From assembly GCA_016219005.1 (NCBI GenBank), contig JACRCN010000051.1, forward strand, positions 1 through 50,117: a stretch of 50,117 bases of DNA, in the 5' to 3' direction. A program made the translations under genes and the position numbers. Positions 25,576-47,802 of this stretch are shown here, in pieces. Each line of letters opens with the position of its first letter. The first letter of the stretch is position 1. This DNA is from Deltaproteobacteria bacterium. GTDB lineage: Bacteria; Desulfobacterota; Desulfobacteria; Desulfobacterales; SpSt-501. Below the pieces are notes generated by a model. The model did no database searches, had not been told where the DNA came from, and saw only the letters and a list, made by a program, of their open reading frames with translations.

Positions 25576-26307
25576 TTAATGAGAAAAGCGCTTGAAGGCA
25601 ACAGGTTTTTGAGGCTTCTGCGGTTTGCTGTTTTCCAGCATATTGGCTTTTTTCGTACGTAAATGAGTCAGGTAAGAATCCCGGGAATAGGAAATGTGGC
25701 GTGTCGTAATTTTTTCGAGTTGCTTGAAATCCTTTTTTTCCAAAGCGACGATCAGTTTCCTGTGCTCAAGCTGTATCCGTTGAACCACCGCCGGAGACGA
25801 CCATGCATGGTAACGCAGGATGTGGCACCGGGCCTGCAGTTGTTTGATTATCTGAATTAGATTCTTATTGCTGCAAAGCTCATATATATAATCGTGAAAC
25901 CTTGCATTCGCCGCGATCATGGCGCTAAAATCTTTACTCTGAACATTTTTTTCAAATTGATCGGCCATTCGTTTTAGGAAATCGATATCAGGCCTTTTTA
26001 TCTGCGTCGCTGCCTTCTGCACCGCTAACCCCTCAAGTATAAAACGAACCTCAAAAATTTCTTCAATCTCTTCTTCATCAAGGTCACAGACGATGGCTCC
26101 CTTGTATGGGATCACCTTGATCAGCCCTGTTGTTTCAAGGACTTTTAGCGCATCCCGGATCCAGAAACGGCTCACCCCCAATTCCGTGGCCAAATCATGT
26201 TCAATCAGTCTCTCGCGAGGCTGAAACATCCCGCCCAGAATCATGTTCTCAAGCTGCGAAATAAGCTTGTTGAAATCTGCTTTGAGATCTTTTTTAGGGC
26301 GAAGCAT
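25576..26307 (-). CDS. GntR family transcriptional regulator, FCD domain
   Basis: This regulator of about 243 residues has an N-terminal winged helix (residues about 10-75: EHDLATELGVSRFWIRDALKVL, ETTGLIKVIPYKGAIV). The C-terminal all-helical FCD ligand domain is recognised by EIFEVRFILEGLAV and ANARFHDYIYELCSNKNLI, the latter giving the metal-binding histidine region. FCD regulators usually respond to organic acids. It is the last gene of the 22-kb minus-strand cluster and is probably its local repressor; that is inferred from position. The start used is the ATG at 26307, although a TTG at 26322 is possible. Confidence 0.93.
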   Translation of the reverse strand: MLRPKKDLKADFNKLISQLENMILGGMFQPRERLIEHDLATELGVSRFWIRDALKVLETTGLIKVIPYKGAIVCDLDEEEIEEIFEVRFILEGLAVQKAATQIKRPDIDFLKRMADQFEKNVQSKDFSAMIAANARFHDYIYELCSNKNLIQIIKQLQARCHILRYHAWSSPAVVQRIQLEHRKLIVALEKKDFKQLEKITTRHISYSRDSYLTHLRTKKANMLENSKPQKPQKPVAFKRFSH

Positions 26308-26379
26308 CCTGTTTTTTCCCAAAAACCTCGTTGTATTAATGGTAGCTGATAAGGAATATTTTATATATCACAAATCGAT

Positions 26380-26393
26380 TATACGATATACGA
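26380..26393. promoter_or_regulatory. Tandem heptamer TATACGA upstream of gntR-type gene
   Basis: TATACGA occurs twice head to tail (26380-26386 and 26387-26393) in the AT-rich 160-bp gap between the racemase-like gene and the GntR gene. It overlaps a loose TCG-N6-CGA dyad. Autoregulatory binding by the GntR protein is possible but unproven. Confidence 0.3.
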
Positions 26394-26469
26394 AATTTTA
26401 ATATTCTATCAGATTTTTAACTCTAATTCCAAAGAGCCGCGCCCGGAATTCAAGAATGCATTTAGCAGG

Positions 26470-27135
26470 CTATCCCTTCCTTTCAGCAATTTCTTCAAGC
26501 GCCTTGATGCAAAACCCTGGGCTGGCTAATACGGGGACGCGAACCTCCTTCCCCAATACCTCTGCTAAATGCGCCATCGACGCTTGAGCCAAAACCACGA
26601 CATCATTATTTTGCGCTAACCGGTGAACAGCGTCTTTGACGAGCTGATCATGTCTAGGGGTGTCGCCCTCGAGCTTCGCATGAAAAGCGGCCGATTCAAG
26701 AACACATTGAACCCGCACTTTGCGCCCTTCTTTCCTTGCGGCCGATTCAATTAAACTGACACTGGGTTCCTGAGTTGTCCTGGCGGTGGCAACTACCCCG
26801 ATAGCCTCGCCCAATTCAATCGCATGTTTTACCATTGGCTCATCGATTTTCAGGATTGGGATATCGACAAAATTTCTTACGATGTCTACCGCAGGTGAAG
26901 TCGAAGAACATGTAAAAAGGATTAAATCGGCTCCTGTTTCCTGGGCGAAAAAAGCTTGGGTTCCAATTCGCCGGATAACTTTTGGGGTTAACTTGCCATG
27001 TGCCATCAATTCTCTAATTATGCCTTCATCCACCATATGAAAATGTTCCACGTTGGGCAGGTTCTCCTGCAAAAGCTTGCGGAACATGTCGGCAAGAAAA
27101 CTCACTGTATGCAGAAGCGCAAGACGTTTGATCAT
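26470..27135 (-). CDS. Asp/Glu/hydantoin racemase superfamily protein, one-cysteine variant
   Basis: This 221-residue protein shows the superfamily fold words LILFTCSSTSPA with the first active-site cysteine (Cys76), GVVATARTT and a C-terminal PVLASPGFC. The second catalytic cysteine, expected in a VLGCAGMA-like strand, is replaced by glutamine in VLAQASMA (Gln184). A two-base racemase mechanism therefore looks unlikely; one-cysteine members of this superfamily can be decarboxylases or isomerases. It lies beside a maleate-isomerase relative in the catabolic cluster, so a role in processing a dicarboxylic or malonate-type acid is possible. The ribosome site GGGGAG precedes the ATG. Confidence 0.85.
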   Translation of the reverse strand: MIKRLALLHTVSFLADMFRKLLQENLPNVEHFHMVDEGIIRELMAHGKLTPKVIRRIGTQAFFAQETGADLILFTCSSTSPAVDIVRNFVDIPILKIDEPMVKHAIELGEAIGVVATARTTQEPSVSLIESAARKEGRKVRVQCVLESAAFHAKLEGDTPRHDQLVKDAVHRLAQNNDVVVLAQASMAHLAEVLGKEVRVPVLASPGFCIKALEEIAERKG

Positions 27136-27188
27136 GGTTGATCTCCCCGGAAAAACATAGGCAGATTGGCCACCGGAGCGACTTTACT

Positions 27189-27315: not shown

Positions 27316-28143
27316 CTAAACTCTGGGAACCTTACGAAGGAGTTGTCCGTAGCCCTCCACCACATCGTTCATACCCAGCAATTTCATCAGATGCCATGCA
27401 GTGGCCTGGTTGGATGTAACCACCGGTTTGCCGGTGTCCTGCTCGATCTGTTCGATGACATCGCTGCATCGGAAGTTGGTACATGTGATGAAAATGCCGT
27501 CAGCTTCTGGCACCACCGCCTTCATGGCGGCCTGGTATGCTTGCGATGGTTTGGTTGAGCCCATCTCATAAAGATCTTCGATCCCCAGTCCGTTCACGTT
27601 GAGGACCTCAAAGCCCGAATTCTGGTAAAAGCTGCGGAACCGTTCGTTTAGCTCGTCAATATAGGGTCCGGTGATGACGATCTTCTTGAAGCCCATAAAC
27701 CGCATGGCTTCCTCTGCTGCCGTGGCCGTGGTCGTACTGGGAATGCCCTTGGATTGAACGATCCGGCCGTTCGCATGCCGAGCACATGAAAACCCTGCCG
27801 TAGCTTTGTCCATCATCTCGATTTCTTTCTTATCCCATCCCGGCCCGCCGACCAGTGACCCGGCTGTACACGCGAAAGCGATCGCCGAGCGGTTGCCGAT
27901 GATGGGTGAGGACAACCCCTCCGCCAGAAGCGCCGCCGCGTTGCCCAGAGGCCCACTCAATTTAGAGCATTCCTTGATATTGACCACCGGATCCATGTGA
28001 ATCCGTGTCTCCCGGATTTGAACATAGTCCGGCAGCATGCGGGTGATTTCCGGGGTAGGATTCAAATTAGGTCCGACCACGATGAGACCGACTCGGGCCC
28101 GATAGCCATAGGGCACTTCATAGGTTTCCTTTTGCTTGATCAT
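27316..28143 (-). CDS. Maleate isomerase / arylmalonate decarboxylase-like protein
   Basis: This 275-residue member of the Asp/Glu racemase superfamily carries both active-site cysteines: Cys92 in AFACTAGS and Cys221 in FITCTNFRC. VTSNQATAWHLMKLLG near the end is typical of maleate cis-trans isomerases. The N-terminal YRARVGLIVVGPNLNPTPE fits the same group. Maleate isomerase converts maleate to fumarate; relatives decarboxylate malonates, so the exact substrate is open. AAGGAGG precedes the ATG. It sits between the MBL hydrolase and the one-cysteine relative, 45 bp after the former. Confidence 0.88.
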   Translation of the reverse strand: MIKQKETYEVPYGYRARVGLIVVGPNLNPTPEITRMLPDYVQIRETRIHMDPVVNIKECSKLSGPLGNAAALLAEGLSSPIIGNRSAIAFACTAGSLVGGPGWDKKEIEMMDKATAGFSCARHANGRIVQSKGIPSTTTATAAEEAMRFMGFKKIVITGPYIDELNERFRSFYQNSGFEVLNVNGLGIEDLYEMGSTKPSQAYQAAMKAVVPEADGIFITCTNFRCSDVIEQIEQDTGKPVVTSNQATAWHLMKLLGMNDVVEGYGQLLRKVPRV

Positions 28144-28188: not shown

Positions 28189-28971
28189 TCAGTACAGATG
28201 CCGGGCTGCAATTCGTTCCATCACCAGCACCGGATTGTTAAGGGGCTCAGGATACAGATTTGTTCTAACCTCCCACTGGAATGGCGACAGAAACTCCAGT
28301 CCTCCCTGGAAATGTCGAAACGGCCGGTCGTGTCCGGGAATGATGACTTCCGCCTGCGCCATGACGACGCGAATGCTTTCGGCGGCATCTTGGGCCGACG
28401 CCGCCATGGCGGCTTTGCCGCTAACGGCCTCCCATGCATTTTTGATCACATCACCGCAAACAGCCGTGATTTCGGACTCCTTACAGAGCATCACAATCCC
28501 CCCAGGCGTGTGGCCGGGTCGAACCGTGAGTCTGCAATTGGGCCCCAATTCATGCTCCTTTTCCACCCGATGTATAGATCGATTCCAGAGCAAGAACTCC
28601 CAGAAATCAGGCACTGCGTGGTCTACCGTACTGCCGGCGGCCACCTGTTCCGCATAATCAATTTCAGCCTGACTGACATAGACTTCGGCACGGGGGAACA
28701 GCGGCAGGTTCAAAATATGGTCAAAATGCAAGTGGGATAAAACGACATGCCGAATGTCTGTCGGCTCGATTCCGGCCTTATTCAGGGCAGACAGCAGAAG
28801 ATTTCGGTCACTGTAATGGCCGGTGTCGAAAAGGCCCCATTCACCCTTGCCGTCCAAGGTGAATAGCGTCACGGCGCAATAGCCAAGGTACCCTCGACTG
28901 GTCGAGCCGGGCACTCCGGGAAGCAGAACATTAAGACCAGCCGGCAATCCATTCGTTTTTAAGTCTGCCAT
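28189..28971 (-). CDS. Metallo-beta-lactamase-fold hydrolase (lactonase-like)
   Basis: This zinc hydrolase of about 260 residues has the motif SHLHFDH (HXHXDH), a downstream metal histidine in RPGHTPGG, and a late IIPGHD. The layout resembles N-acyl homoserine lactonases and related carboxylic-ester or lactone hydrolases. In this cluster it could open a lactone to a hydroxy acid, which is an inference. The start is uncertain: ATG 28971 gives the family-like N-terminus, while ATG 29022 would overlap the preceding gene by 23 bp. It is cotranscribed with the Fe-S oxidoreductase just upstream. Confidence 0.87.
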   Translation of the reverse strand: MADLKTNGLPAGLNVLLPGVPGSTSRGYLGYCAVTLFTLDGKGEWGLFDTGHYSDRNLLLSALNKAGIEPTDIRHVVLSHLHFDHILNLPLFPRAEVYVSQAEIDYAEQVAAGSTVDHAVPDFWEFLLWNRSIHRVEKEHELGPNCRLTVRPGHTPGGIVMLCKESEITAVCGDVIKNAWEAVSGKAAMAASAQDAAESIRVVMAQAEVIIPGHDRPFRHFQGGLEFLSPFQWEVRTNLYPEPLNNPVLVMERIAARHLY

Positions 28972-28999
28972 GTTATCAATCTCAGCCGCTGCTTGGACT

Positions 29000-30865
29000 T
29001 CATGCGGGTTTGACGGCTCCATCCTCTAAAGCCAAAGCGGCGTCGAGGCCTTCAGTGATGGCTTCACAGATGGATCGCGGTCGACAGGCATCGCCGATGA
29101 CCCGCACCCGCACCCGCCCTTCCAGTGCCTCAGCCAACCGTGAGTCGCTACGGTAACCCACCGCTATCACGACACTATCAAAAGGTCCTAACACCGTTTC
29201 ATTGTTGCCGATCGACACTTTAGCCATACCGTCTCGAACGGACAGCACCCGGGTTTTTGTCAGCAGGTTGACGCCCATCTTTAGGAGCCGATCGAAGACG
29301 AGTGTCAAGCGCTTAGGCCCCAGACCCTGCCCCATTTGTTCCAGCATTTCCACCACTGTGACCTCAGCCCGACGGTCGGCGAGATAATCAGCCGTCTCCA
29401 GGCCAACGACTCCGCCGCCGATAACCAAGTAGCGCCCTGCAACAATTGAGTCTTTGCTTAAAATTTCCTCTGCATCGACCACCTGGCGGTCATCGGGATC
29501 GATGCATTCCGGCCGGATAGAAAGCGCGCCGGTGGCTATGATGACATCGTCGGCCTGAAAGCCCAGCACGGTCTCCGGAGTAATTTCACGTCCGAGCTCA
29601 AACCGCACCCCGGCGGCTTCCGCTTTTTTGATCAGGTATGTGTTGAGGTCGGTGATAGCATCTTTGAAAGGAGGGCGCGCGGCCACAGCCAGGGCGCCAC
29701 CGGCTTCGGTCCGTTTTTCGGCCAAGACCACATCCGCACCCCGCTCGGCTGCGGCTGCAGCAGCGCTCAGGCCAGCGGGCCCCCCACCGACAACGAGTAC
29801 ACGCCGCGGACTGGATAGCGGAGGCAGCTGTGTAAAATCGCGGCCAATCATTGGATTGACTGCACAGCGAACGCTTTCGCCTTTATGCAGGCATGTGAGA
29901 CAGCCATAGCAGGCCAGGCATGGTCGAATTTCATCCTCTCGTCCCTGTCGGATCTTTTCCACAAAGTCAGGATCGGCGATAAGAGCTCTGCCCACAGCGG
30001 CCATGTTGACATAGCCGCCTTCGACGGCTTCACGGAAAATGTTAGGCCGGTCCAGTCGGCCCACCCCAATCACCGGTATGGATACCACCTGCTGAAGCGC
30101 CCGCCCGTAAACCAACAGGCGGCCTCTCGGGACCTCACAGGGAGGCGACATCCGGTACTGGGTAAAACCAATACCGGCCGAGGCGCTCAGGTAATTCACC
30201 CCCAGAGCTTCCAGGCGTCGGCCGAATTCGATCGTTTCGTCCAGGTTTAGACCAACGCCTTCCAAGAAATCCACCATGCTCAGGCGTACACCCAGAATCA
30301 GATCAGGCCCTACCGCGGAGACGATTTCCTCGACGGTCTCCCGCAGCAGCCTGAAGCGATTTTCCAAGCTGGCCCCGTACTCATCCGTGCGGGTGTTGAA
30401 ATGCGGAGAAAGGAAGAAGTTCAGCCAGTAATCATGACAAGCATGCAGCTCAATTGCATCAAAACCGGAGTCTTTCGCCCGGATTGCTGCCTTAACGAAC
30501 GCCTGGCGATAGGACCGGATTTCATCCAAGGTGAAATCCTTGGCCATTCTTCCGATACTTTTAAAGCTCAATTGTACGCCAATACGGGAATGCCCACCGA
30601 TGGCATGAGCAAGGGCGGCAAGGCCTGGTATCAAGCCATCTCTGTCGATGCCCAGTTGGCGCCCGAAACCTCTACCATGTGGATGAACGAAGGTCGCCCC
30701 GAGGATGATATAGCCGACTCCACCGCGCGCCCGGGCTAAATAGAAATCCCGGAAGGCCTCTGTAACGGAGCCATCGGTTCCTGCCAGGTTGAGCACCATG
30801 GGCGCCATAACGGCCCGGTTCTTGAATTTAACACCCTTCAAATGGATGGGAGAAAAAAGATCCAT
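29000..30865 (-). CDS. Fe-S old yellow enzyme (2,4-dienoyl-CoA reductase-like), copy 1
   Basis: This 621-residue flavoenzyme has an N-terminal FMN barrel (residues about 1-330) with the active-site HACHDYWLNFFLSPHFNTR and DEYGASLENR. It also has a cysteine cluster and a C-terminal FAD/NAD(P) module with VVGGGPAGLSAAAAAAERG and VIGGGVVGLETADYL. It reduces activated C=C bonds, as in FadH-type dienoyl-CoA reductase. The cluster motif is unusual: C316-X2-C319-X2-C322-X11-C334 plus an extra C325, one residue shorter than the common CX2CX3CX11C. The ATG at 30865 follows AAGAGG. It lies just after TRAP transporter 1 and is partnered by a second homologue at 40605. Confidence 0.93.
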   Translation of the reverse strand: MDLFSPIHLKGVKFKNRAVMAPMVLNLAGTDGSVTEAFRDFYLARARGGVGYIILGATFVHPHGRGFGRQLGIDRDGLIPGLAALAHAIGGHSRIGVQLSFKSIGRMAKDFTLDEIRSYRQAFVKAAIRAKDSGFDAIELHACHDYWLNFFLSPHFNTRTDEYGASLENRFRLLRETVEEIVSAVGPDLILGVRLSMVDFLEGVGLNLDETIEFGRRLEALGVNYLSASAGIGFTQYRMSPPCEVPRGRLLVYGRALQQVVSIPVIGVGRLDRPNIFREAVEGGYVNMAAVGRALIADPDFVEKIRQGREDEIRPCLACYGCLTCLHKGESVRCAVNPMIGRDFTQLPPLSSPRRVLVVGGGPAGLSAAAAAAERGADVVLAEKRTEAGGALAVAARPPFKDAITDLNTYLIKKAEAAGVRFELGREITPETVLGFQADDVIIATGALSIRPECIDPDDRQVVDAEEILSKDSIVAGRYLVIGGGVVGLETADYLADRRAEVTVVEMLEQMGQGLGPKRLTLVFDRLLKMGVNLLTKTRVLSVRDGMAKVSIGNNETVLGPFDSVVIAVGYRSDSRLAEALEGRVRVRVIGDACRPRSICEAITEGLDAALALEDGAVKPA

Positions 30866-30929
30866 GAAGTTGCCTCTTGGATGGAAGCTCAACTACACCT
30901 CATCCGTTATAAATTCACTTGATAGACAT

Positions 30930-32219
30930 CTATCTCACATATCCGAGCAGTCTCGGAAGCCACATCGTCAAGTCAGGCCAATAGGCCACCGCAAGAGTCA
31001 GAAGCGTCAGGAAGCTCCAGAAGGGAACGATTTCTTTAAAAGCTTCGTCCGGCTTAATACCCGCGATTCGACAAGTTACAAAGAGACTCAGGGCTACGGG
31101 TGGCGTGAGCAAAGCAATCTGTATCGCCATGACGAAAACAAGGCCGAAGTGGTGCGCCTCAATTCCGTAAGAGGCAGCGATCGGCGCGAACACCGGCACG
31201 AACATGATCATTATAGCGATGGCCTCTATGAAAAACCCAAGGAAGTTCAGAAAGAGAACAACCAGTGTAATAAAAAAGAAGGGGCTGGAGGAAAGTGACA
31301 TCAGAAGGATGCCTGCCTTCTGGGGGATTTGGCCGCTGGTCAAGATCCAGGCGCAAACCTTTGCAGTAGCCATAAGAAGCAAGATAGCCGAGCTGGTGAC
31401 GGCCGTCGTAAAAATCGAGTCCATGACGGCGGGAAGACTCAGTTTCCGGGTGACAATCGTCCCAACGATCAGAACGTAGGCTGTTGCGGCTGCCCCGGCT
31501 TCGGTTGGTGTGAAAACTCCAGTGAGGATCCCTCCCAGGATGATCAGCATGGCGACAATGCCTAACATAGCCCCTCTGAAACTCCGGATTACATTCAGGA
31601 GGCTGAATTTCTCACCGCTGACAGGGTAATTGCGCCGCTTGGCCAATATATAGGAAATGACCATAAGCCCGATCCCGACCAGCACCCCAGGCACTATACC
31701 GGCCAGAAAAAGAGCGGCTACGGAAACCGTTCCTCCCTGGACGAATGAGTATATCAGCATCCCCACGCTGGGGGGGATCAGAGGACCCATGATGGAGGCC
31801 GATGCGGTCAGTACCGCTGCAAAACGCGCATCATAGCCTTCCCGTTTCATACTGGGAATGAAAATGGATCCTATGGCGGCGGCATCGCCTACGGCCGTGC
31901 CGGTGACCCCAGAAAGAAACATTTCGGTAACGATGCTTACATGAGCGAGCCCGGCCCTCCAATGGCCCACGAGTGCCTTGGCCAGCTTTACCAGGTTCGG
32001 GAGGATGCCGCTTCGCTCGGCCAGATCTCCTGCCATTATGAAGAAGGGAATGGCCATCAATGGAAAGGAATCAATACCTGAAAACATCAGGGTGGGTATG
32101 ATGAGTAAGGATTCCTGTCCGCTAAACAGCAGGAAGGCCAAAGCCGCCAGCCCCAGGCAGAAGGCCACTGGCACGCCAAGAAGGATGGTAACAAAAAAGG
32201 CGATGAACAAAAAGATCAT
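30930..32219 (-). CDS. TRAP transporter large permease (DctM-type), system 1
   Basis: This 429-residue protein has about 12 membrane helices and forms the ion-coupled core of a TRAP importer. The start FIAFFVTILLGVPVAFCLG, then FPLMAIPFFIMAGDLAERSG, GTAVGDAAAIGSIFIPSMKREGY and GPLIPPSVGMLIYSF are DctM signatures. It overlaps the small permease gene by four bases, the usual coupling. It works with the binding protein encoded at 32789-33799. The substrate is presumably an organic acid, given the surrounding catabolic genes. Confidence 0.95.
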   Translation of the reverse strand: MIFLFIAFFVTILLGVPVAFCLGLAALAFLLFSGQESLLIIPTLMFSGIDSFPLMAIPFFIMAGDLAERSGILPNLVKLAKALVGHWRAGLAHVSIVTEMFLSGVTGTAVGDAAAIGSIFIPSMKREGYDARFAAVLTASASIMGPLIPPSVGMLIYSFVQGGTVSVAALFLAGIVPGVLVGIGLMVISYILAKRRNYPVSGEKFSLLNVIRSFRGAMLGIVAMLIILGGILTGVFTPTEAGAAATAYVLIVGTIVTRKLSLPAVMDSIFTTAVTSSAILLLMATAKVCAWILTSGQIPQKAGILLMSLSSSPFFFITLVVLFLNFLGFFIEAIAIMIMFVPVFAPIAASYGIEAHHFGLVFVMAIQIALLTPPVALSLFVTCRIAGIKPDEAFKEIVPFWSFLTLLTLAVAYWPDLTMWLPRLLGYVR

Positions 32220-32731
32220 GAGGTACCTCCTTCTTGGCCCTGCGCCTTATTTGGAGGAGGTTCACGCCGTCCTGAAACGATCTGAATATTCTCCCAAATT
32301 TTAGGAAGCAGGTTCAAGATCATGAGCGCCCCACCCACGGGGAGCGCTAAATAGAACCAGAACATGGAGATATTCAGGGTAGGAATGATCTGTTCAAATT
32401 GGAAAGAAAGGGCAACAATTCCCTCGACGATCAGAAAGACCAGAAAAATACCAAGCAAAAGCTGGGCCGCGAGATTAAACCCTGAGATAGTCCGGCCCCG
32501 GAAACGGTCGACAAAGATCTCCATTCTGAAGTGACTGTTTTCCCTGATGGCGAAACTGGAGCCCAGAAAAACCATCCAGACCAGAGAGTAGCGAGTAAAT
32601 TCCTCTGTTATGTAGAGAGAAGTCCCAAACAAATAGCGGAGGACGACTTCGACTGAGACCATGACCGTTATGACAGAAAGAATGGCGATGGTCGCTACTC
32701 TGATGCACTTGTTCAGGATATCGAAGAACAT
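32216..32731 (-). CDS. TRAP transporter small permease (DctQ-type), system 1
   Basis: This 171-residue, four-helix membrane protein has the DctQ pattern: VEVVLRYLFGTSLYITEEFTR, LVWMVFLGSSFAIRENSHFR and LALPVGGALMILNLL. It supports the large permease in binding-protein docking. The ATG at 32731 is preceded by GGGGGCG; an upstream in-frame extension would cover the dctP-dctQ hairpin and is rejected. Its end overlaps the large permease gene. Confidence 0.92.
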   Translation of the reverse strand: MFFDILNKCIRVATIAILSVITVMVSVEVVLRYLFGTSLYITEEFTRYSLVWMVFLGSSFAIRENSHFRMEIFVDRFRGRTISGFNLAAQLLLGIFLVFLIVEGIVALSFQFEQIIPTLNISMFWFYLALPVGGALMILNLLPKIWENIQIVSGRREPPPNKAQGQEGGTS

Positions 32732-32747
32732 GTCGCCCCCAGGGAAG

Positions 32748-32779
32748 GAGGGTAGGCTCTCTCTGCGAAGCCTACCCTC
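32748..32779 (-). terminator. Hairpin between TRAP-1 binding-protein and small-permease genes
   Basis: GAGGGTAGGCT (32748-32758) and AGCCTACCCTC (32769-32779) are perfect 11-bp complements, extendable beyond one small bulge. It lies directly after the binding-protein stop codon. It probably protects the upstream mRNA or attenuates the permease genes so that binding protein is in excess. Confidence 0.7.
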
Positions 32780-32788
32780 TCCTTTCAA

Positions 32789-37668: not shown

Positions 37669-37700
37669 AGAGATTCTCCTTGCCGTATCTATAAAATTAT

Positions 37701-39478: not shown

Positions 39479-39493
39479 ATCATCTAATTTCCT

Positions 39494-39524
39494 GCGGTGA
39501 AGCGGCATGATGCCGCTTCACCGC
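39494..39524 (-). terminator. Perfect 15-bp hairpin between TRAP-2 binding-protein and small-permease genes
   Basis: GCGGTGAAGCGGCAT (39494-39508) and ATGCCGCTTCACCGC (39510-39524) are exact complements with one central base. It lies 9 bp after the binding-protein stop. It has no clear U-run, so it fits a protective or attenuating hairpin rather than a full terminator. In RNA the inner pairs would open to form the loop. Confidence 0.8.
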
Positions 39525-40604: not shown

Positions 40605-42539
40605 TCAAATCTTTACTGCGAGCGCGAACGCCTGATGGACGGCATCCAAGGCGTTTCCCTGGTTCCAGCAATCTCCAACCCGATAACAGAGCGCTTTCTT
40701 CGGAAGTGTGTCCTGGCTTGCAGGCATTCGCGGCTTTCCTCCCAACGCCAGCACGACACTTCGCGCCGGGAGATCGGTGACCTGCCCGCCGCCAACCAAT
40801 GGCCGGTCGGACACCCGCACCGATTCATGCGTAATTTCAATCGCCCGATGGCCTATTACTAAGGTGACACTGTTTGCATGAAGTCGATGCATCAAGGCTT
40901 CACGTACCCCAATACCTGTAAGAATATCACGGCCGACGGCGTCAAGGATTTCCACCACCGTGACGCGATGTCCGCGTGCGGCCAGGAGGTCGGCGGTCTC
41001 CAGACCAGAGGCACCCCCTCCGATGACGACCACGGGACTGATCAGATTTTCAATTTTTCCGGAAAAGACCTCGCGGGCAGTGACCACATGGGGGAGACCG
41101 ACACCGGGGATCGGTGGTTTAGCAGGTTCCGTGCCGGTAGCAAACACATAAACATCAGCATCCAGGGCATTTAAAAGCGCCGTATCCGCCATCGTTTTCA
41201 ACCGTATATCAACGCCCAAGCGCCTCAGTTCGTGCTCATAAAATTCTGGCATCTTACCGAAATCACCTTTAGCTGGAGGCACGGCAGCCAACCGAATCTG
41301 ACCCCCCAGACATTCGGCCTTCTCAAGCAACGTGACGAGGTGCCCTCTAAGCCTGCTAACCCGAGCCATTTCACAGCCTGCCGGGCCGCCGCCGACGATC
41401 ACCACCCGTTTAACCACCTCTGCGGGCGTGATCGGATTCTCAAATTCTCTGCCGGCCAGGGGATTATACATGCAGCTGATCCAGGAGCGTTTAGGATCGC
41501 GGACTGCACCGAAGCAGCCCTGATTGCAGCGCAAACAGGAGCGGATGTCTTCCAGCCGACCCTCTGCTACTTTGCGAGGCCACTCCGGGTCAGCAATCAA
41601 CGGGCGTCCAAGCCCGATCAGGTCGGCCATCCCGCCCTCCACTGCGGCACGCGCGATATCCGGTGTCATCGAATTGCCGACGATCACGGGGACGCGGATG
41701 GCCTCTCTAACCGCTTTCCCAATGGGCAGCAGCAGACCGCGAGGGACATCGCCAGGCGGAATGGCGATGTGATTGACGTGACCCAATCCTCCCGAAATAC
41801 TGACTGCGGATACACCGCATTCATCCAGCATTTTCGAGAGCGCTACGGCATCTTCGGGCGTGAAGCCATTCGGGGCAAATTCGCTTCCGGAAATACGGTA
41901 GACAACGGGGTAATCGTCGCCTAAGCGTACGCGGATGGCCTGAAGAATGTCCAACGCAAAGCGAAAGCGACCTTCGCGGCTCCCGCCATATTCGTCCTTG
42001 CGATGGTTCCAGAAAGGAGATAGAAATTCAGAAATGATGCAGCCATGGCACGCATGGATTTCGATCGCATCGAATCCCGCGCGGCGGGTACGCTCCGCCG
42101 CCGCCACGAAGAGATCGGTGAGATACCGAATTTCAGCGGTGGTGAGTTCTTTGCAGTCGGGGCTGCAGTCAGGAGCCTGCGTGGACGCAGCATATCGGGG
42201 AAAACCATTTAGCTGCTGGCGGAAATACATCCCGAGTTGGAGGGAGACGAACGCCCCTTCTTCGTGTACGCGCTGAGTCAGCCGGGACAGCCCCGGAATC
42301 AAATGATCTCCATATGCTCCCAGGGCATTTTTTACATGGGGCAATTGCGGGTGGATGAAGGCTTCCTCGACGGTGATCAGGGCAGCACCACCCGAGGCCC
42401 GGGCGGCATAATATTCGGTCAATCGATCCGTAACTTGTCCGGTCGGCCCGGCGAAACAAGTTGACATGGCCGTCATCACCAGCCGGTTCTTCAGTCGCAG
42501 GCTTCCCAGCGTCACACGTTCGAACAACCTGTTTGCCAC
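40605..42539 (-). CDS. Fe-S old yellow enzyme (2,4-dienoyl-CoA reductase-like), copy 2
   Basis: This flavoenzyme of about 644 residues has the same architecture as the protein at 29000. The FMN barrel carries EIHACHGCIISEFLSPFWN and DEYGGSREGR. The iron-sulfur motif CLRCNQGC, then 13 residues, then CMYNP follows, and then FAD (VGGGPAGCEMARVSRLRG) and NAD(P) (VIGGGASGLETADLLA) sites. I start at GTG 42539, preceded by GGGGAG at ideal spacing; a TTG further upstream would overlap the dehydratase gene. It probably reduces an enoyl-type intermediate produced near the neighbouring dehydratase-like enzyme, which is an inference. Confidence 0.92.
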   Translation of the reverse strand: MANRLFERVTLGSLRLKNRLVMTAMSTCFAGPTGQVTDRLTEYYAARASGGAALITVEEAFIHPQLPHVKNALGAYGDHLIPGLSRLTQRVHEEGAFVSLQLGMYFRQQLNGFPRYAASTQAPDCSPDCKELTTAEIRYLTDLFVAAAERTRRAGFDAIEIHACHGCIISEFLSPFWNHRKDEYGGSREGRFRFALDILQAIRVRLGDDYPVVYRISGSEFAPNGFTPEDAVALSKMLDECGVSAVSISGGLGHVNHIAIPPGDVPRGLLLPIGKAVREAIRVPVIVGNSMTPDIARAAVEGGMADLIGLGRPLIADPEWPRKVAEGRLEDIRSCLRCNQGCFGAVRDPKRSWISCMYNPLAGREFENPITPAEVVKRVVIVGGGPAGCEMARVSRLRGHLVTLLEKAECLGGQIRLAAVPPAKGDFGKMPEFYEHELRRLGVDIRLKTMADTALLNALDADVYVFATGTEPAKPPIPGVGLPHVVTAREVFSGKIENLISPVVVIGGGASGLETADLLAARGHRVTVVEILDAVGRDILTGIGVREALMHRLHANSVTLVIGHRAIEITHESVRVSDRPLVGGGQVTDLPARSVVLALGGKPRMPASQDTLPKKALCYRVGDCWNQGNALDAVHQAFALAVKI

Positions 42540-42567
42540 TTCGCGCTCCCCATATATTGGCAGCCAC

Positions 42568-44013
42568 CTATTCGGGCTTGCTGTCAATCCCGGCTAGCCG
42601 TTTTGCAGCCTTTTTTCGAGCTTCTAAATCGCACTCGCGGAAAATGGTCACCCTGTGAGCCTCCGGCGAACCGCCCCCGTGAATATCCGATATGGTGTCG
42701 GCGCTTTCCATGGCCATTTTTTCAATCAGCCGGTACATTTTAATCCGGTCTTCCACCGCGACCTGATCCTTGCCCTTTAAGTATTTCTTGAGCAATGGGC
42801 CGATTTCCGGGTTTTCAATGTCCTTATCCGACGGCAGATCAGCGACATACCCGCCGGAAATGTCCACCATCAGGCGGATGGCTTCCGCCATTTCTTTGCC
42901 TTCATGAATCTTTGAAGCGTTTGCCAGAACCGTGTCGATGAAATAGGCGCCCGAAGGCTGTTTTTTGCCTTCGTAGGATGCCGCCAGACTGCAGCCATAC
43001 AGCGTTTCCGCCCGGTGGACCATGTCAATAATCTTCTGCTTTAAATGGCTGGATTTTTCAGTGCCGCTATAGTCCATCATGGCAAGGGCGGCCCCGGTCA
43101 TGCAGTCGATCTTGCCGGATTTGCATCCGCCGTGGCTTTGCCGATGGTACGAAGAAAATTTGATGACCATCTCGGCGGCGAATTCCACCTCGCCGCACAT
43201 AAAGACCCTCTCCCAGGGAACAAACACGTCGTCGAAAATGACCGTTGGACAATATTTGGAGTAACGGATGTTTCCCACATCACATCCATCGAGCTCCCGC
43301 TTGTCGAGACTCGAACGTCCGACCACATGGATCAGTCCGGGCGAATCCGCCGGGATGGCAAATGCGATCGCGTAGTCTTCATCCCCTTTGCGCAAGGCGC
43401 GAGTGGGCAGCACGATGATTTCATGCGAGGAAAGTGAGCCGGTCTGGTGGGCCTTGGCTCCTCGAACGACGACCCCATCGCTGCGCCTCTGAACCACGTG
43501 AAGATACATATCCTTATCGGCCTGTTCTTGGGGGCCTAGAGAGCGATCGCCTTTGACATCGGTTACGCCGGCGTTGCAGGTGAGATCGTTTTTTTGCACA
43601 TATTTTAAAAATTCCTTGAACCGTTCAAAATAGGATCCCTTGTATTTTTGGTCGATGTCGTAGGTAACGATGGATAGGGCTGAAAGACAGTCAAGACCCG
43701 TGCAGCGTTGATGACACGTACCGACCCATCGCCCCAGCGTGCGATTGATTTTCACCCTCGCCACCAAATCTTCTGTGGAGCCCGGTGGCAAGGTGAATCG
43801 ATTAACCGGTTCATCGACCAACGGACTGTGGGTGACCAACAAGCTTTGATATTCCGGCATTTGGGCTAATTCATAGGTGGCGCCCGTGGATTCGATTCCA
43901 GCCCGCAGTCGCGGGTTGTCGACCACGCTGGTAATTTTTTCACCGAACATATAGGCGGTCGGCTTCATCTGACGCAGGGATTCGATGTATTCTTCTTTCG
44001 TCTTGAGACCCAT
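42568..44013 (-). CDS. 4-hydroxybutyryl-CoA dehydratase-family Fe-S flavoprotein
   Basis: This 481-residue member of the 4-hydroxyphenylacetate 3-hydroxylase/4-hydroxybutyryl-CoA dehydratase superfamily keeps all four iron-sulfur ligands of the dehydratase: Cys100 and Cys104 (TCHQRC), His290 and Cys297 (HRQSHGGC). The spacing is the same as C99, C103, H292, C299 of the clostridial enzyme. This separates it from Fe-S-free flavin monooxygenases. The known enzyme dehydrates 4-hydroxybutyryl-CoA to crotonyl-CoA by a ketyl radical. The HRQSY of that enzyme is HRQSH here, so the substrate may differ. The ATG at 44013 follows AAGGAG. It sits between the 2-oxoacid oxidoreductase and an Fe-S reductase. 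Confidence 0.92.
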   Translation of the reverse strand: MGLKTKEEYIESLRQMKPTAYMFGEKITSVVDNPRLRAGIESTGATYELAQMPEYQSLLVTHSPLVDEPVNRFTLPPGSTEDLVARVKINRTLGRWVGTCHQRCTGLDCLSALSIVTYDIDQKYKGSYFERFKEFLKYVQKNDLTCNAGVTDVKGDRSLGPQEQADKDMYLHVVQRRSDGVVVRGAKAHQTGSLSSHEIIVLPTRALRKGDEDYAIAFAIPADSPGLIHVVGRSSLDKRELDGCDVGNIRYSKYCPTVIFDDVFVPWERVFMCGEVEFAAEMVIKFSSYHRQSHGGCKSGKIDCMTGAALAMMDYSGTEKSSHLKQKIIDMVHRAETLYGCSLAASYEGKKQPSGAYFIDTVLANASKIHEGKEMAEAIRLMVDISGGYVADLPSDKDIENPEIGPLLKKYLKGKDQVAVEDRIKMYRLIEKMAMESADTISDIHGGGSPEAHRVTIFRECDLEARKKAAKRLAGIDSKPE

Positions 44014-44059
44014 GATGGCTGCTCCTTTTTGTCCCCAAATTAACGGCGCCATTCTGAAA

Positions 44060-44599
44060 TCAGGCGCCTTTCACTCTTTCATATCCGAGTCGAAAGGCGT
44101 CCATGTTTTTCTCCGTCTTACCCTTGGGCACCATCTCTTGAATCGCCGCCTCTAACGCTATGCGGCTGACCAGATCGGTGCATTTGCAGAGAGCGCCCAG
44201 CATGACAATGTTGGCCGTAACCGGTTCATTGACCTCGTTTCGGGCGATGGACGTGGCCGGTATCCGGAACACCCCGTTGACGGATTCAGGAATGTTCGAA
44301 ATCATGTCCGTGTCCATGATGAGAATCCCGCCCGGCTTGAGGGATGACGCGAAACGGTCGATCGAATCCTGCGCCTGGGCAACCAGAATGTCCGGGTGGA
44401 TGACTCGTGGATACTCCACCGGTTCATCGGCGATGATGACCCAGGCGGCCGCAAAACCGCCTCTCAGCTCCGAAGAGTAGGCTTGGGTATGTGTGGCAAA
44501 TTTACCGTCATAGGCCACGGCAGCCTTTCCCAGCATCATTCCCGCCAATATGGAACCTTGGCCGCCGAGACCGGCAATGGTTAATTCCGTGCGTGTCAT
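44060..44599 (-). CDS. 2-oxoacid:ferredoxin oxidoreductase gamma subunit
   Basis: This 179-residue gamma domain begins ELTIAGLGGQGSILAGMMLGKAA, the family opening, and contains YSSELRGGFAAAWV. It completes the TPP enzyme with the beta subunit, whose stop codon overlaps its ATG (ATGA). It is part of the four-gene set delta-alpha-beta-gamma in KorDABC order. Together they oxidatively decarboxylate a 2-oxoacid to an acyl-CoA and reduce ferredoxin in the cytoplasm. Confidence 0.93.
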   Translation of the reverse strand: MTRTELTIAGLGGQGSILAGMMLGKAAVAYDGKFATHTQAYSSELRGGFAAAWVIIADEPVEYPRVIHPDILVAQAQDSIDRFASSLKPGGILIMDTDMISNIPESVNGVFRIPATSIARNEVNEPVTANIVMLGALCKCTDLVSRIALEAAIQEMVPKGKTEKNMDAFRLGYERVKGA

Positions 44600-45429
44600 T
44601 GCCGCCCCTCCCTCATGCTATGAATGAGCCGAGTCCATTCGCTGGACAGCTCCGGCTTTTCGATGTCCACGAATTCTCCAACCACGATTTTGCCAAGCAA
44701 TTCCGCCGGATCCATTTTTCTGGCTTTTTCAATCCGCACACTATTGCTCTTGAAATGCTTCAATATCTCCACGGCTCCCCCCAGTTTGCTCGCCCGGCCG
44801 AATTGCACCGGGCACTGCGTTACCACCTCGATCAGGGCAAACCCTTTCTTGGTGAGCCCCTTTTTAATGGCCTTGGTCAACTGGCGCGGATGGTGAGTCG
44901 TCCAGCGTGCCACATAAGCGGCTCCAGCGGATACGATCATGGGCGCGATGTCGAAGCTGTGTTCCAGGCTGCCATAGGGGCTGGTGACAGTTGAGATGCC
45001 TCGTGGGGTTGTCGGTGCCGTTTGGCCGCCGGTCATTCCGTAGATCCCATTGTTCATCAATACTACCGTCAATCCAATGTTGCGGCGTGCCGCATGGATG
45101 AGATGGTTGCCGCCGATCGCCGTAAGGTCGCCATCGCCGCTGACGACCATCACATGTTTTTCAGGTAGCCCCAGTTTGACCCCTGTAGCGAAGGCAACCG
45201 GCCGGCCGTGCGTCGTGTGCAAGGTATCAGCCGCAAAAAACGGACTCGGGATCCACGCCGAACATCCGATGCCTGAAACAAAAACAAAATCGTCCATCCT
45301 AAGATCTAATTCTTCGATGGCGCGCAATATAGCTTGGGTGGCTATTCCGTTCCCGCATCCCGGACAGGTGGTTGTGCGAGTAACATGGGGGCGAGCGTAT
45401 TTCCGCAACGGATGAACGGTTGCATTCAT
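44596..45429 (-). CDS. 2-oxoacid:ferredoxin oxidoreductase beta subunit (TPP-binding)
   Basis: This 277-residue subunit binds thiamine pyrophosphate: TTTCPGCGNGIATQAILRA, SGIGCSAWIP, and the GDGD-LTAIGGNH-to-MNNGIYGMTGGQTAP stretch. The cysteines near the start ligate an iron-sulfur cluster in this family. The length and NGIYGMTGGQ wording fit the 2-oxoglutarate/branched 2-oxoacid group (KorB), but the exact 2-oxoacid cannot be assigned. It overlaps both neighbours by four bases. Confidence 0.94.
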   Translation of the reverse strand: MNATVHPLRKYARPHVTRTTTCPGCGNGIATQAILRAIEELDLRMDDFVFVSGIGCSAWIPSPFFAADTLHTTHGRPVAFATGVKLGLPEKHVMVVSGDGDLTAIGGNHLIHAARRNIGLTVVLMNNGIYGMTGGQTAPTTPRGISTVTSPYGSLEHSFDIAPMIVSAGAAYVARWTTHHPRQLTKAIKKGLTKKGFALIEVVTQCPVQFGRASKLGGAVEILKHFKSNSVRIEKARKMDPAELLGKIVVGEFVDIEKPELSSEWTRLIHSMREGRQ

Positions 45430-46580
45430 GCGAGCATCTCCTTGACTTTCTCAAGTATGGCATTCGGGTCGTGAATTTGCCCGAGAAACTGGGGGCCAAG
45501 GAATTCCACCCGGCTGGCATGGGCCGCTTCAGCCCTGATATAAGGATAGAGCTGGCCGGAATTGTTTTCGAGGACCAACAGGTTATTTACCCGTGAAGCT
45601 GCCTTGCGAATGGCCTCTTCGGGGAACGGCCAACATGTGATCAGTCGAAGCGTCCCGACTCTCAAGCCCTGGTTTCTGGCAAGCCGGGCCGCTGCGCGGG
45701 CTGAACGGGATACGGTGCCGTAGGTTACCAAAACGAGATCGGCATTGACGTAATCTTCACGGACTTCAACAATTTGATCTCGATGCGTTAGAATTTTTTG
45801 GATCGGGTTCATCACATACCGGTGCATGACGGCGGGCTCCGTCAGGTTCCGCATACCATGCTCATCATGACACGAGCTGGTCACGTGCGCCTGCAAGCCT
45901 TTGCCAAACACCGGCATCGGGGCGACGCCAATATCCAGGAAATCCTGGCGCTTCATAGGATCCGCAACAGTGGGCACGCGCCGTTCGACCAGATCGATTT
46001 GGTCAGCCGGCGGGATTATGATCTGCTCCCGCATGTGCCCGATAAATCCATCGGCCATCAGGAAAACGGGAACTCGATAGGTTTCGGCGATGTTGAAGGC
46101 GCGGATGGTCAGATCAAACATTTCTTGCGGACTCTCGGGACACAAGGCAATGATCTGGTAGTCGCCATGGGATCCTCTTGCGACCTGCACGATATCGCCG
46201 GCCATTCCAATAGAAGGCACACCCGTTGAAGGCCCTAAGCGCTGGACGTCGATGATGACGATGGGGGTTTCCGTTGAAACGGCAAATCCGATGTTTTCCT
46301 GCATCAGGCTGATTCCCGGCCCCGAGGTTACCGTGAGCGCCCTGCATCCCGCCCAGGAAGCCCCGATGACGGAACATATAGCGGCAATTTCATCTTCGGT
46401 TTGCAGAAAGATGCCGCCGACCTGTGGCAGGCGCTTGGCCATATAATTGGCAACCTCACTGGCAGGCGTAATCGGATAGCCGGCGACGAAGTTGCAGCCG
46501 GCCGCAATCGCCCCTTCCGCGCAGGCCCAGTTGCCCATATCAAAATGAGTCCCAGCCAAAGCGGTCCGAGCTTTAATCAT
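45426..46580 (-). CDS. 2-oxoacid:ferredoxin oxidoreductase alpha subunit
   Basis: This 384-residue subunit has GNWACAEGAIAAGCNFVAGYPITPASEVANYMAKRL, then LQTEDEIAAICSVIGASWAG, TSGPGISLMQENIGFAV and QRLGPSTGVPS. These place it in the KorA group of pyrimidine-domain subunits. The ATG at 46580 follows GGGAAG; longer in-frame starts overlap the delta gene more deeply. It overlaps the delta gene by eight bases and the beta gene by four. Confidence 0.94.
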   Translation of the reverse strand: MIKARTALAGTHFDMGNWACAEGAIAAGCNFVAGYPITPASEVANYMAKRLPQVGGIFLQTEDEIAAICSVIGASWAGCRALTVTSGPGISLMQENIGFAVSTETPIVIIDVQRLGPSTGVPSIGMAGDIVQVARGSHGDYQIIALCPESPQEMFDLTIRAFNIAETYRVPVFLMADGFIGHMREQIIIPPADQIDLVERRVPTVADPMKRQDFLDIGVAPMPVFGKGLQAHVTSSCHDEHGMRNLTEPAVMHRYVMNPIQKILTHRDQIVEVREDYVNADLVLVTYGTVSRSARAAARLARNQGLRVGTLRLITCWPFPEEAIRKAASRVNNLLVLENNSGQLYPYIRAEAAHASRVEFLGPQFLGQIHDPNAILEKVKEMLA

Positions 46581-46827
46581 CGCTTCCCTCCCCTGCCGGA
46601 GGGCCATCCTGCGCATCTTTATGGACCACGATTGCCATGTCCGGGCAGTAGATCATGCAGTTTTCACAGGCGGTGCACGATGCCTCATCGGTCATTTCGG
46701 GAGGGATGTACCCTGCGGAATTCATTTCCTTTGAATCACGGTACAGATCTTTAGGGCAGACATACTTGCAAATCCCGCATTGATCGACACCCTTGCAGTT
46801 CTGGCTCAAGACGTCAACTTTGGACAT
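46573..46827 (-). CDS. 2-oxoacid:ferredoxin oxidoreductase delta subunit (2x[4Fe-4S])
   Basis: This 84-residue ferredoxin-like subunit has two 4Fe-4S motifs: C11, C17, C20, C24 followed by Pro, and C51, C54, C57, C61 followed by Pro. The first motif has five rather than two residues between its first two cysteines, as in KorD proteins. It passes electrons from the TPP and Fe-S core to free ferredoxin. It is the first gene of the four-subunit set, 24 bp after the hydroxyacid dehydrogenase gene. Confidence 0.93.
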   Translation of the reverse strand: MSKVDVLSQNCKGVDQCGICKYVCPKDLYRDSKEMNSAGYIPPEMTDEASCTACENCMIYCPDMAIVVHKDAQDGPPAGEGSDD

Positions 46828-46851
46828 ATACCTCTCCTCAGCGCGACGGGT

Positions 46852-47802
46852 TCAAACAACCGGATATTCCGGTTTTTGGCCCCTCAAGACAGCTAGCACA
46901 TCTTTGGCTACCATGCTCATTCGGATCATGCCTTCTTCGGTGTGAGCAGACATGTGCGGTGTGCCCACAAAGTTGTCCAGTCCGAGAAGGGGGTTGTTTG
47001 GCGACACCGGCTCGGTTTCAAAGACATCTGACCCGGCTCCTGCAATCCGGCCGTTTTTCAGTGCATCGACAACATCAGATTCCTTCCACACCGGTCCACG
47101 CGCCATGTTGATCAGGAATGCGGTGGGTTTCATCCGTTTCAACAATTCTGAATCAATGAGATGCGTCGTGGTGGAAATCAAGGGGAGATTGATGGAGATG
47201 AAATCGGCATGGGCGAAGATGTTCTCAGGATTTGCGCGAATTGCCCCTATTTTGCTTTCAACCTCCGGGTAGTTCACAACATCGTGATAAAGAATTTTCA
47301 TTTGAAAACCAAAGTGGCAAATGTTGGCGGTTTGCTGCCCGATTCTGCCAAACCCCATGACGCCCAATGTTTTACCATGCAGTTCGGCTCCTATCAGTTC
47401 GTATCGGGCCTTCCAATTTCCTGCTCTCAATGAAAGGTCTGCCAGCCGGACCTTCTTGGCCAGCATCAACGCCAGAGCGACGAAATGTTCCGCAACACTC
47501 TCGCTGTTTGCGGTGGGAGTATAAACCACTCGGATGCCCTTCTCGCGGGCAGCTTCAAGATCGATGGCATCTAATCCGACGCCGTGCCGGCCGATCACTC
47601 TCAGGCGCGCAGCGGCTTGGATTGTTTTACGAGTTACGGCTCCGTTCGCCCGGATCACTATGGCGTCTACATCTGCGGCCTGGAGGGCGAGCTGGTTTTC
47701 CTCAAGGGAATGCGCGTAAATCAAATCGCATGATTCCGCCAGTAAGGATGTGCCTTTTGCATGCATAGGTTCGTACATTAGGATTTTGTGTCTTGATCTC
47801 AT
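46852..47802 (-). CDS. D-2-hydroxyacid dehydrogenase (3-phosphoglycerate dehydrogenase-like)
   Basis: This 316-residue NAD-dependent dehydrogenase has the cofactor loop GVMGFGRIGQQTANI. The D-2-hydroxyacid dehydrogenase catalytic set includes INMARGPVWKESDVVDAL with the arginine, GAGSDVFETEP with the glutamate and TPHMSAH with the histidine. The ACT domain of some SerA proteins is absent. It would interconvert a 2-hydroxyacid and 2-oxoacid, feeding the 2-oxoacid oxidoreductase encoded immediately downstream. It is the first gene of the 22-kb cluster, preceded by a palindrome-bearing gap. Confidence 0.92.
   Translation of the reverse strand: MRSRHKILMYEPMHAKGTSLLAESCDLIYAHSLEENQLALQAADVDAIVIRANGAVTRKTIQAAARLRVIGRHGVGLDAIDLEAAREKGIRVVYTPTANSESVAEHFVALALMLAKKVRLADLSLRAGNWKARYELIGAELHGKTLGVMGFGRIGQQTANICHFGFQMKILYHDVVNYPEVESKIGAIRANPENIFAHADFISINLPLISTTTHLIDSELLKRMKPTAFLINMARGPVWKESDVVDALKNGRIAGAGSDVFETEPVSPNNPLLGLDNFVGTPHMSAHTEEGMIRMSMVAKDVLAVLRGQKPEYPVV

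Follow-up and report, generated by a model that had tools for sequence, protein, structure and literature searches.

A candidate regulon for anaerobic organic acid catabolism in Desulfobacterota: a 22-gene block with a putative palindromic operator and an apparently new enzyme family

The DNA analyzed here (hereafter, the window) is the entire contig JACRCN010000051.1, 50,117 nucleotides in length, from the genome of a Deltaproteobacteria bacterium of the order Desulfobacterales (GCA_016219005.1; assembly size 5.24 Mb, 98.5% complete). The open reading frames (ORFs) of the window, combined with family searches, delineate a block of 22 genes, all on the minus strand, within positions 25576-47802, which encode a set of putative catabolic enzymes, two TRAP importers and a GntR/FCD regulator. 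This block, the candidate operator located in front of its first gene, and the counterparts of both in other genomes are the subject of this report. A preliminary description of the region counted 18 genes, whereas its own list sums to 22, given two 3-gene TRAP importers and four subunits of a 2-oxoacid oxidoreductase (POR); its view of a single-strand block with mostly short gaps or overlaps holds, all the genes that it named being found on the minus strand within 25576-47802. Gene names marked "by eye" come from reading the printed sequence, without a family search. The features, in window coordinates, are as follows.

47869..47898, minus strand: TTGACA-18-TAAATT, a promoter-like site preceding HADH, the first gene; 10 of 12 consensus matches
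47860..47871, no strand: candidate operator ATTGTTAACAAT, a perfect palindrome over the -10 box, from pattern search and recurrence in relatives
46852..47802, minus strand: HADH, D-isomer-type 2-hydroxyacid dehydrogenase (PF02826, E 3.5e-55; PF00389)
46573..46827, minus strand: PORd, ferredoxin-like delta subunit of 2-oxoacid oxidoreductase (84 amino acids, two Cys clusters; homologues adjoin PORa in relatives)
45426..46616, minus strand: PORa, 2-oxoacid:acceptor oxidoreductase alpha subunit (PF01855; NCBIfam NF006412, 463 bits, cut-off 411)
44596..45429, minus strand: PORb, beta subunit (thiamine pyrophosphate; PF02775)
44060..44599, minus strand: PORg, gamma subunit (PF01558; TIGR02175 above cut-off)
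42568..44052, minus strand: HBD, relative of [4Fe-4S]-flavoprotein dehydratases/isomerases (PF11794/PF03241; best solved relatives 1u8v and 6vjr)
40605..42587, minus strand: OYE2, BaiCD/FadH-type old yellow enzyme (PF00724 and PF07992; NF041087, 462 bits, below the equivalog cut-off of 825)
39533..40552, minus strand: DctP2, TRAP solute receptor (PF03480)
38975..39508, minus strand: DctQ2, TRAP small membrane subunit (assigned by its place, flanked by DctP2 and DctM2, an arrangement that relatives share)
37701..38981, minus strand: DctM2, TRAP large membrane subunit (PF06808)
37309..37668, minus strand: small cupin of ~119 amino acids (PF07883, E 3.6e-20), the C-terminal part of the listed ORF 37309-37998, with homology from ~37668
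36402..37265, minus strand: U287, 287-residue protein with an internal duplication and no Pfam, NCBIfam or PDB sequence match
35103..36371, minus strand: LarA22, LarA superfamily, NCBIfam group 22 (NF052515, 476 bits, cut-off 400)
33993..35072, minus strand: PRISE-like short-chain dehydrogenase (PF22917, E 4.9e-29)
32789..33799, minus strand: DctP1, TRAP solute receptor (PF03480)
32216..32788, minus strand: DctQ1, TRAP (PF04290)
30930..32219, minus strand: DctM1, TRAP (PF06808)
29000..30892, minus strand: OYE1, second BaiCD/FadH-type old yellow enzyme (PF00724 and PF07992; NF041087, 419 bits, below the cut-off of 825)
28189..29022, minus strand: MBL, lactonase-like hydrolase of the metallo-beta-lactamase fold (PF00753; acyl-homoserine-lactone lactonase models far under cut-off)
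27316..28143, minus strand: AMD, arylmalonate decarboxylase/maleate isomerase/EutA-like protein (PF17645; TIGR02990 below cut-off)
26470..27135, minus strand: RACE, Asp/Glu-racemase-fold protein with one invariant Cys, C76 (PF01177)
25576..26322, minus strand: GntR/FCD regulator (PF07729, PF00392)

Adjacent genes of the block mostly overlap or are separated by short gaps; the largest gap (193 bp) lies between PRISE and DctP1, and further larger ones separate AMD from RACE (180 bp) and RACE from GntR (147 bp). Promoter-like sites in total were not above shuffled sequences (18 versus 13.4 ± 3.4), and the case therefore rests on the operator. Simple terminator scans of the region were likewise not above shuffles (22 versus 20.1 ± 5.4 and 10 versus 10.6 ± 3.0). 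The combined promoter-operator pattern TTGACN{15,30}TTGTTAACAA matches once in the entire 5.24-Mb genome, at the island before its first gene. Elsewhere in this genome, the 12-bp palindrome has one exact copy, within an ORF (C10), and one copy whose outer bases differ (C47); neither has a TTGAC box at the required distance. A weak promoter-like site (9/12) is present in the 193-bp PRISE-DctP1 gap, and a search of the island gaps for other shared operators yielded nothing beyond short words and a further small palindrome, located between GntR and the downstream cytochrome gene.

Within 24 stretches that total 359 kb (the island and 23 others), the palindromic core TTGTTAACAA has 13 occurrences, against 0.23 expected from first-order Markov sequences, where none of 30 runs gave more than 2. 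No other palindromic 10-mer is as frequent in these 359 kb; the second, a G+C-rich word present in four stretches, occurs 11 times. None of the 13 sites falls inside a gene homologous to those of the island, and 12 of them lie no more than 175 bp from the homology start of HADH, PORd, HBD, OYE2, cupin, DctP2, OYE1 or GntR. Excluded from this count were repeats of other loci (L001-L006, L016, L019, L020, L110 and the short ones, L025-L080), the portion of L014 shared with L103, L009 (a flank), L099 (which bears AMD) and 18 HBD loci tallied apart; L091, without U287, was retained. A scan of all 117 loci detected no operator site in L009 or L099, and the core is absent from the 18 separately tallied loci, which represent the two other contexts of HBD described below.

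At the genome scale, the promoter-operator pattern matched in nine of 20 chosen genomes, none of them among the five tested with HBD in other contexts. One match is in G358, a genome that lacks U287 but carries the LarA22-HBD-POR-HADH module of L091. The nine pattern-bearing genomes are also the nine that score highest, among the 20, for a relative of the island GntR: in these nine the best relative scores between 177.6 bits, for a sequence truncated at a contig end, and 544 bits, and in the other eleven at most 167.6 bits, or nothing, such that the ordering by score against operator presence is perfect, yet the score gap is small. In G399, the pattern alone, applied genome-wide, recovered a lone TRAP1 operon on another contig, with DctP1 and DctM1 82% identical and the operator ~330 bp before the listed ORF start. 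Both the GntR and the FCD domains were identified in the island regulator by family search, and ATTGTTAACAAT, judged by the pattern and by its pairing with the regulator, looks like the operator of this protein. We consider it fairly probable that the block is one catabolic operon, probably of horizontal origin, under a single GntR/FCD regulator, which we infer to be a repressor.

A further operator site is found in the complete genome CP070697 (G403), within 4162501-4176500 (L136), flanked by an old yellow enzyme gene and a pair of dehydrogenase genes, next to what by eye resembles a sugar-type ABC importer. This unit consists of the old yellow enzyme, an iron-type alcohol dehydrogenase (by eye), HADH and a short-chain dehydrogenase/reductase, beside GntR, and OYE/ABC units resembling it adjoin cluster genes in L010, L091 and L096.

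To assess the conservation of the block, we searched for its genes, and for their order, in relatives. U287 is present in 4 of 395 sampled genomes of the phylum, with the own genome counted, and, at 70-80% identity, in at least 11 genomes of the named collection, a lower bound because that scan used short patterns. By title, the 11 genomes are three Desulfobacterales, one Desulfobacteraceae, one Syntrophaceae, two Desulfohalobiaceae, a "Proteobacteria" metagenome-assembled genome (MAG), two Aerophobetes and one Poribacteria. Seven of them encode HBD (at least 74% identity), seven AMD (at least 76%), and ten at least one of the two. Across the 394 phylum genomes other than the own one, U287 is found in three and AMD in three, with both in two (P 1.2e-4), and the HBD clade in 29, which cover all three U287 carriers (P 3.6e-4); these P values treat genomes as independent. 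The AMD orthologues found in cluster carriers are 70-83% identical.

In relatives, the genes fall into three modules with variable gene order, namely, A, with OYE2 or GlcD/GlcF-like genes (partly by eye), TRAP2, cupin and U287; B, with TRAP1, AMD, RACE, MBL and OYE1; and C, with HADH, POR, HBD and, in some cases, LarA22. The cupin gene adjoins U287 in G037 and in 10 of the 11 U287 loci of the named collection (the exception is L023). In CP070697, the three modules lie apart, at 0.41, 2.2 and 6.47 Mb. Because the block genes recur together in other genomes, some of them distant, their grouping is not due to chance, and the assignment of the block to one pathway, as advanced in the preliminary description, appears well supported by these comparisons. 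That description had named two outcomes that would count against it, homologues scattered independently with no conserved order and promoters dividing the region into unrelated units; what we observed instead is that modules co-occur even where the order is broken and that nine genomes share operator and regulator. Its expectation that HBD-like, PRISE-like and U287 genes travel together was borne out for HBD and U287, but no PRISE homologue was detected in the relatives' loci examined (no whole-genome search for PRISE was made), so that PRISE is not part of the core there. Of the two old yellow enzymes, one or both were absent from some of these loci.

The same data bear on the view that several unrelated catabolic units without a common pathway, as two importers and two old yellow enzymes might suggest, simply lie together. 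The modules are indeed separable and rearranged in relatives, the three larger gaps, one with its weak site, could hold promoters, and HBD together with POR is found in eight loci of genomes without U287 or AMD hits. Against this, the operator is shared, the regulator travels with it, dispersed modules still co-occur, and the TRAP1 operon of G399 was retrieved through the operator alone, all of which makes a mere juxtaposition of units highly improbable.

With respect to the origin of the block, its G+C content is 0.532 compared to 0.62 in the left flank, and third-position G+C spans 0.48-0.67 in the 20 island genes measured (of 22) versus 0.82-0.88 in seven of the eight left-flank genes measured, the exception being the gene at 214-1452 (0.59). 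The block was therefore probably acquired horizontally. The host genome, from the phylum Desulfobacterota, encodes the dissimilatory sulfite reductase alpha subunit (dsrA; 623 bits, cut-off 393), which marks the host as a sulfate reducer. Immediately downstream of the island, a multihaem cytochrome c gene (23791-25299) has a third-position G+C of 0.88, like the left flank. Farther away, at 8248-15324, lie in a row genes for glycine cleavage P-protein subunits, a lipoyl-synthase-like radical SAM protein, alanine racemase and a SerB-like HAD hydrolase with ACT domains.

Under the reading of the block as one catabolic operon, the two TRAP importers would bring in one or more organic acids, and U287 with the cupin, AMD, RACE, MBL, OYE1 and OYE2, in this genome also LarA22 and PRISE, would reshape the carbon skeleton by isomerisation, lactone opening and C=C reduction to yield a 2-hydroxyacid. 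HADH would oxidize the latter to a 2-oxoacid, which POR would convert to acyl-CoA, CO2 and reduced ferredoxin; the HBD relative would then remove water or shift a double bond to give a crotonyl-CoA-like ester, to be converted to acetyl-CoA by beta-oxidation genes. POR is complete, with alpha, beta, gamma and delta subunits (delta by Cys clusters and position). The POR-then-HBD order is proposed because the genes adjoin. A C5-C6 hydroxy acid would fit as the substrate. The chemistry is partly constrained by these assignments, and the portion of the scheme from import to 2-hydroxyacid is what we infer from them. In one relative, G399, the operator precedes an operon encoding thiolase, 3-hydroxybutyryl-CoA dehydrogenase, enoyl-CoA hydratase (crotonase) and the beta subunit of a sodium-pumping decarboxylase, which suggests that the pathway may end at acetyl-CoA via a crotonyl-type ester.

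HBD aligns over nearly its whole length with 4-hydroxybutyryl-CoA dehydratase (AbfD, 1u8v; 447 bits) and with 6vjr (416 bits). C99, C103, H292 and C299, which we take to be the [4Fe-4S] ligands of AbfD, are kept in 29 of 30 distinct sequences of the clade, the 30th being truncated before the two N-terminal Cys, and T190 and K300 are kept as well. By contrast, E257, Y296 and E455 of AbfD, presumably its catalytic residues and present in both solved relatives, are replaced by C, H and S in 29 of the 30 sequences (one is unreadable at 257). These residues set HBD apart from ordinary 4-hydroxybutyryl-CoA dehydratases, which modifies the preliminary description; its clade looks new, with an altered active site. 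The three positions read EYE in six of 16 further family members compared, EY- in one and other sets in nine, so the C/H/S change characterizes the clade without being, on its own, proof of new chemistry. Eight HpaB/HBD-family genes (E ≤ 1e-60), several with other residues at 257/296/455, are present in G396 (CP070746).

Outside U287 genomes, we read 19 HBD neighborhoods from 26 sampled genomes that have the clade but no U287. In 11 of these, HBD is accompanied by its own GntR, ten of them also having an adjacent SucCD-like ligase; in the other eight (seven and L091) it follows POR, in genomes without U287 or AMD hits; an acyl-CoA-forming enzyme thus adjoins HBD in both contexts. The first of these is a second conserved unit, of a SucCD-like ADP-forming acid-CoA ligase, GntR and the HBD clade, found in L081, L082, L083, L084, L085, L087, L088-L090 and L092, in genomes without U287 hits.

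HBD could accordingly be placed outside the POR line, acting on another CoA ester or on an upstream free acid, with the POR product passing straight to central metabolism (e.g., succinyl-CoA from 2-oxoglutarate). Such an arrangement would agree with PORa being closest to the general and 2-oxoglutarate types in NCBIfam, with the ligase-associated occurrence of the clade, and with catalytic residues unlike those of 4-hydroxybutyryl-CoA dehydratase. We nevertheless regard it as rather unlikely, given that HBD directly follows the POR genes in the window and in most loci with both (exceptions are L007, with an MFS gene between, and L084, at ~6 kb) and that the operator-controlled thiolase operon suits a crotonyl-type product.

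Several observations weigh against the reading of a single operon with a common switch and end product. The pattern is not matched in six genomes with cluster genes (G081, G337, both Aerophobetes, G404 and the Poribacteria), and the switch is therefore not universal among the carriers as judged by pattern search. A reversed control pattern gave three matches across the 20 genomes, all in G396, where it matches as often as the real pattern (3 each). The 20.8-kb Poribacteria locus contains U287 without any other island gene, and HBD of the clade was not found in the two Aerophobetes (small MAGs), in G404 or in the Poribacteria. The beta-oxidation link comes from one genome, other loci (their whole genomes were not searched) providing distant matches: a 35% identical thiolase by an HBD paralogue (L039) and 49% identical decarboxylase subunits near solitary HBD genes (L089, L090). 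Finally, with E257, Y296 and E455 lost, HBD lacks the three residues of its solved relatives, and dehydration of a 4-hydroxyacyl-CoA is not assured. Three pattern matches, G399:C245, G403:5571770 and G396:2480053, are not near pathway genes and were taken as chance; in G396, the regulator is encoded 1.9 Mb from its operators.

A different question is whether the regulon serves one acid or several related acids that converge on a single 2-hydroxyacid, the module variants being alternative entries. Importers differ among the carriers, with TRAP1, TRAP2, an oligopeptide-type ABC importer near U287 in G355 and, by eye, in G396, and the sugar-type ABC importer (by eye) of G403, and substrate entry may therefore vary. 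In addition, HADH is replaced or joined by GlcD/GlcF-like (the GlcF part by Pfam, others by eye) or Ldh_2-like genes. Conversely, U287 and AMD are highly conserved (70-83%), as expected of fixed steps of one route, and we retain the convergence of several acids as a tentative possibility. Many solved receptors resemble DctP1 and DctP2 (E 1e-58 to 1e-30), but the match table lists no ligands, and an assignment of the substrate from the receptors was rejected; erythronate/pantoate-type acids, which the best DctP1 matches may bind, carry no weight in the scheme.

The enzymes assigned to reshaping of the skeleton retain recognizable sites. In LarA22, H91, H156, K169, H185 and K264, which presumably correspond to LarA residues, are invariant in the rows compared. 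The nickel-pincer cofactor of LarA requires LarC. LarC (PF01969) was found in 12 of 15 genomes tested, among them four of six with LarA22, but not in the own 98.5% complete assembly, where an assembly gap is possible; the 2-hydroxyacid racemisation that formed part of the preliminary scheme is therefore doubtful here and may not operate in the host, unless LarC falls in such a gap. C92 (10/10 readable rows) and C221 (9/9) of AMD, whose solved relatives include maleate isomerases, are assumed to correspond to the two catalytic Cys of these enzymes. In RACE, C76 is invariant, and the sequence at the second site is AQ(A/G/L)SM wherever a row can be read. In L105 (G400), AMD and RACE adjoin a corrinoid methyltransferase-like set (by eye), a 44% identical LarA22-like protein and another TRAP importer.

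Three more specific assignments were rejected: a bile-acid or steroid pathway, as OYE1 and OYE2 score 419 and 462 bits against the BaiCD cut-off of 825 and no other bai-like gene was recognized in the block; ectoine use, as AMD misses the EutA cut-off; and a dimethylsulfoniopropionate lyase function of the cupin (23 bits, below 27), which has no NCBIfam match at E ≤ 1e-10. The parts of PMC7583248, PMC11770544 and PMC12611868 consulted give no substrate for LarA group 22.

The window U287 has no match in Pfam (up to E 10), NCBIfam or PDB sequences and looks like a new enzyme family, without counterpart in the reference libraries searched. Its two halves are homologous, the duplication score being reached by none of 1000 shuffles in each of 10 homologues (10 of 10). 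Both AlphaFold models predict a beta-alpha-beta-beta-beta topology that occurs twice, from a shallow alignment and, in the second, poor model, of a trimmed U287, with a pLDDT confidence score of 49. Foldseek gave six matches with E ≤ 0.001, every one a VOC protein (E 2.0e-5 to 4.6e-4, TM-scores of ~0.2) and hydroxyglutarate synthase first among them; the VIA list contains many VOC chains, none above Z 4.5, with an unrelated amine dehydrogenase first at 4.9. With TM-scores and Z values this low, the VOC likeness of the modeled fold has weak to moderate standing, as a reasoned guess rather than a membership. Ten positions (H37, H39, H83, E86, H92, D94, H168, H170, E224 and D228) are identical in all U287 rows, including the Sinorhizobium homologue. 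An assignment to HglS/DUF1338 (PF07063) finds no support by sequence, with no Pfam match up to E 10 and an hhalign probability of 0.5% to YdcJ.

The Sinorhizobium homologue, ~36-37% identical, is encoded at 988528-989358 of the S. meliloti plasmid pSmeMABNR56a (L024), where the collection's table has no annotated gene; its neighbors are two HADH genes, Ldh_2, RraA-like and shikimate-dehydrogenase-like genes and, by eye, a tripartite tricarboxylate importer. In G403 (L102, ~13959-14538), a short piece of a second U287 copy and pieces of OYE1 lie beside TRAP1-AMD, followed by a masked N run.

Overall, the comparisons resolve what was an unusual set of genes into a defined regulon, whose switch can be tested, for which a regulator is proposed and whose end product is predicted. 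A tentative extension, which we would put no higher than a possibility, is that the genes encode an undescribed anaerobic route, horizontally spread across at least two phyla (a third with U287 alone), in which acetyl-CoA would be formed from a C5-C6 (hydroxy) acid, with a 2-oxoacid and a CoA ester of the crotonyl or glutaconyl type as intermediates. Its new catalysts would be U287, as the first member of a family of VOC-like metalloenzymes able to form or rearrange a 2-hydroxy- or 2-oxoacid without oxygen, and the dehydratase clade with Cys/His/Ser in place of Glu/Tyr/Glu. Among the titles and abstract openings of the matching papers listed, no published description of the cluster was recognized. 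The novelty resides in the regulon and in the HBD and U287 groups, the genetic system itself being of a known kind; both groups are available as ortholog sets suited to expression, and the operator together with U287 offers a handle for finding the pathway in genomes and transcriptomes of anoxic habitats.

Compared with known systems, HBD belongs to the same family as 4-hydroxybutyryl-CoA dehydratase (AbfD, 1u8v) and vinylacetyl-CoA delta-isomerase (6vjr), with HpaB-type domains and the ligand positions kept, and differs from them in the C/H/S set and in its context with a 2-oxoacid oxidoreductase or a SucCD-like ligase. AMD matches the models of the arylmalonate decarboxylase/maleate isomerase/EutA family and solved maleate isomerases, with C92 and C221 conserved, but stays under the equivalog cut-offs for EutA and arylmalonate decarboxylase (118 versus 318 and 96 versus 225 bits). 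LarA22 passes the group-22 model NF052515 of the nickel-pincer LarA superfamily (476 versus 400 bits); no LarC was found in the host genome. The best Foldseek matches of U287 are the VOC proteins HglS/FLO7 and hydroxymandelate synthase (HMS), a likeness that may extend to the predicted paired modules and the His/Glu/Asp-rich conserved positions; U287 has no sequence relation to E. coli YdcJ, and HglS, HMS and HPPD are oxygenases, according to the part of PMC7286885 consulted, whereas U287 is found in an anaerobe. The closest parallel to the proposed switch is AlkR, an FCD regulator of the VanR group, which, in the portion of PMC12042122 consulted, binds the palindrome ATTGTCAGACAAT over the -10 region: both regulators are FCD members of the GntR family, and the candidate operator of the island, like that of AlkR, is an ATTGT..ACAAT palindrome over the -10 box. 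AlkR controls alkane oxidation, whereas the island regulator, as predicted from sequence, would control anaerobic acid catabolism.

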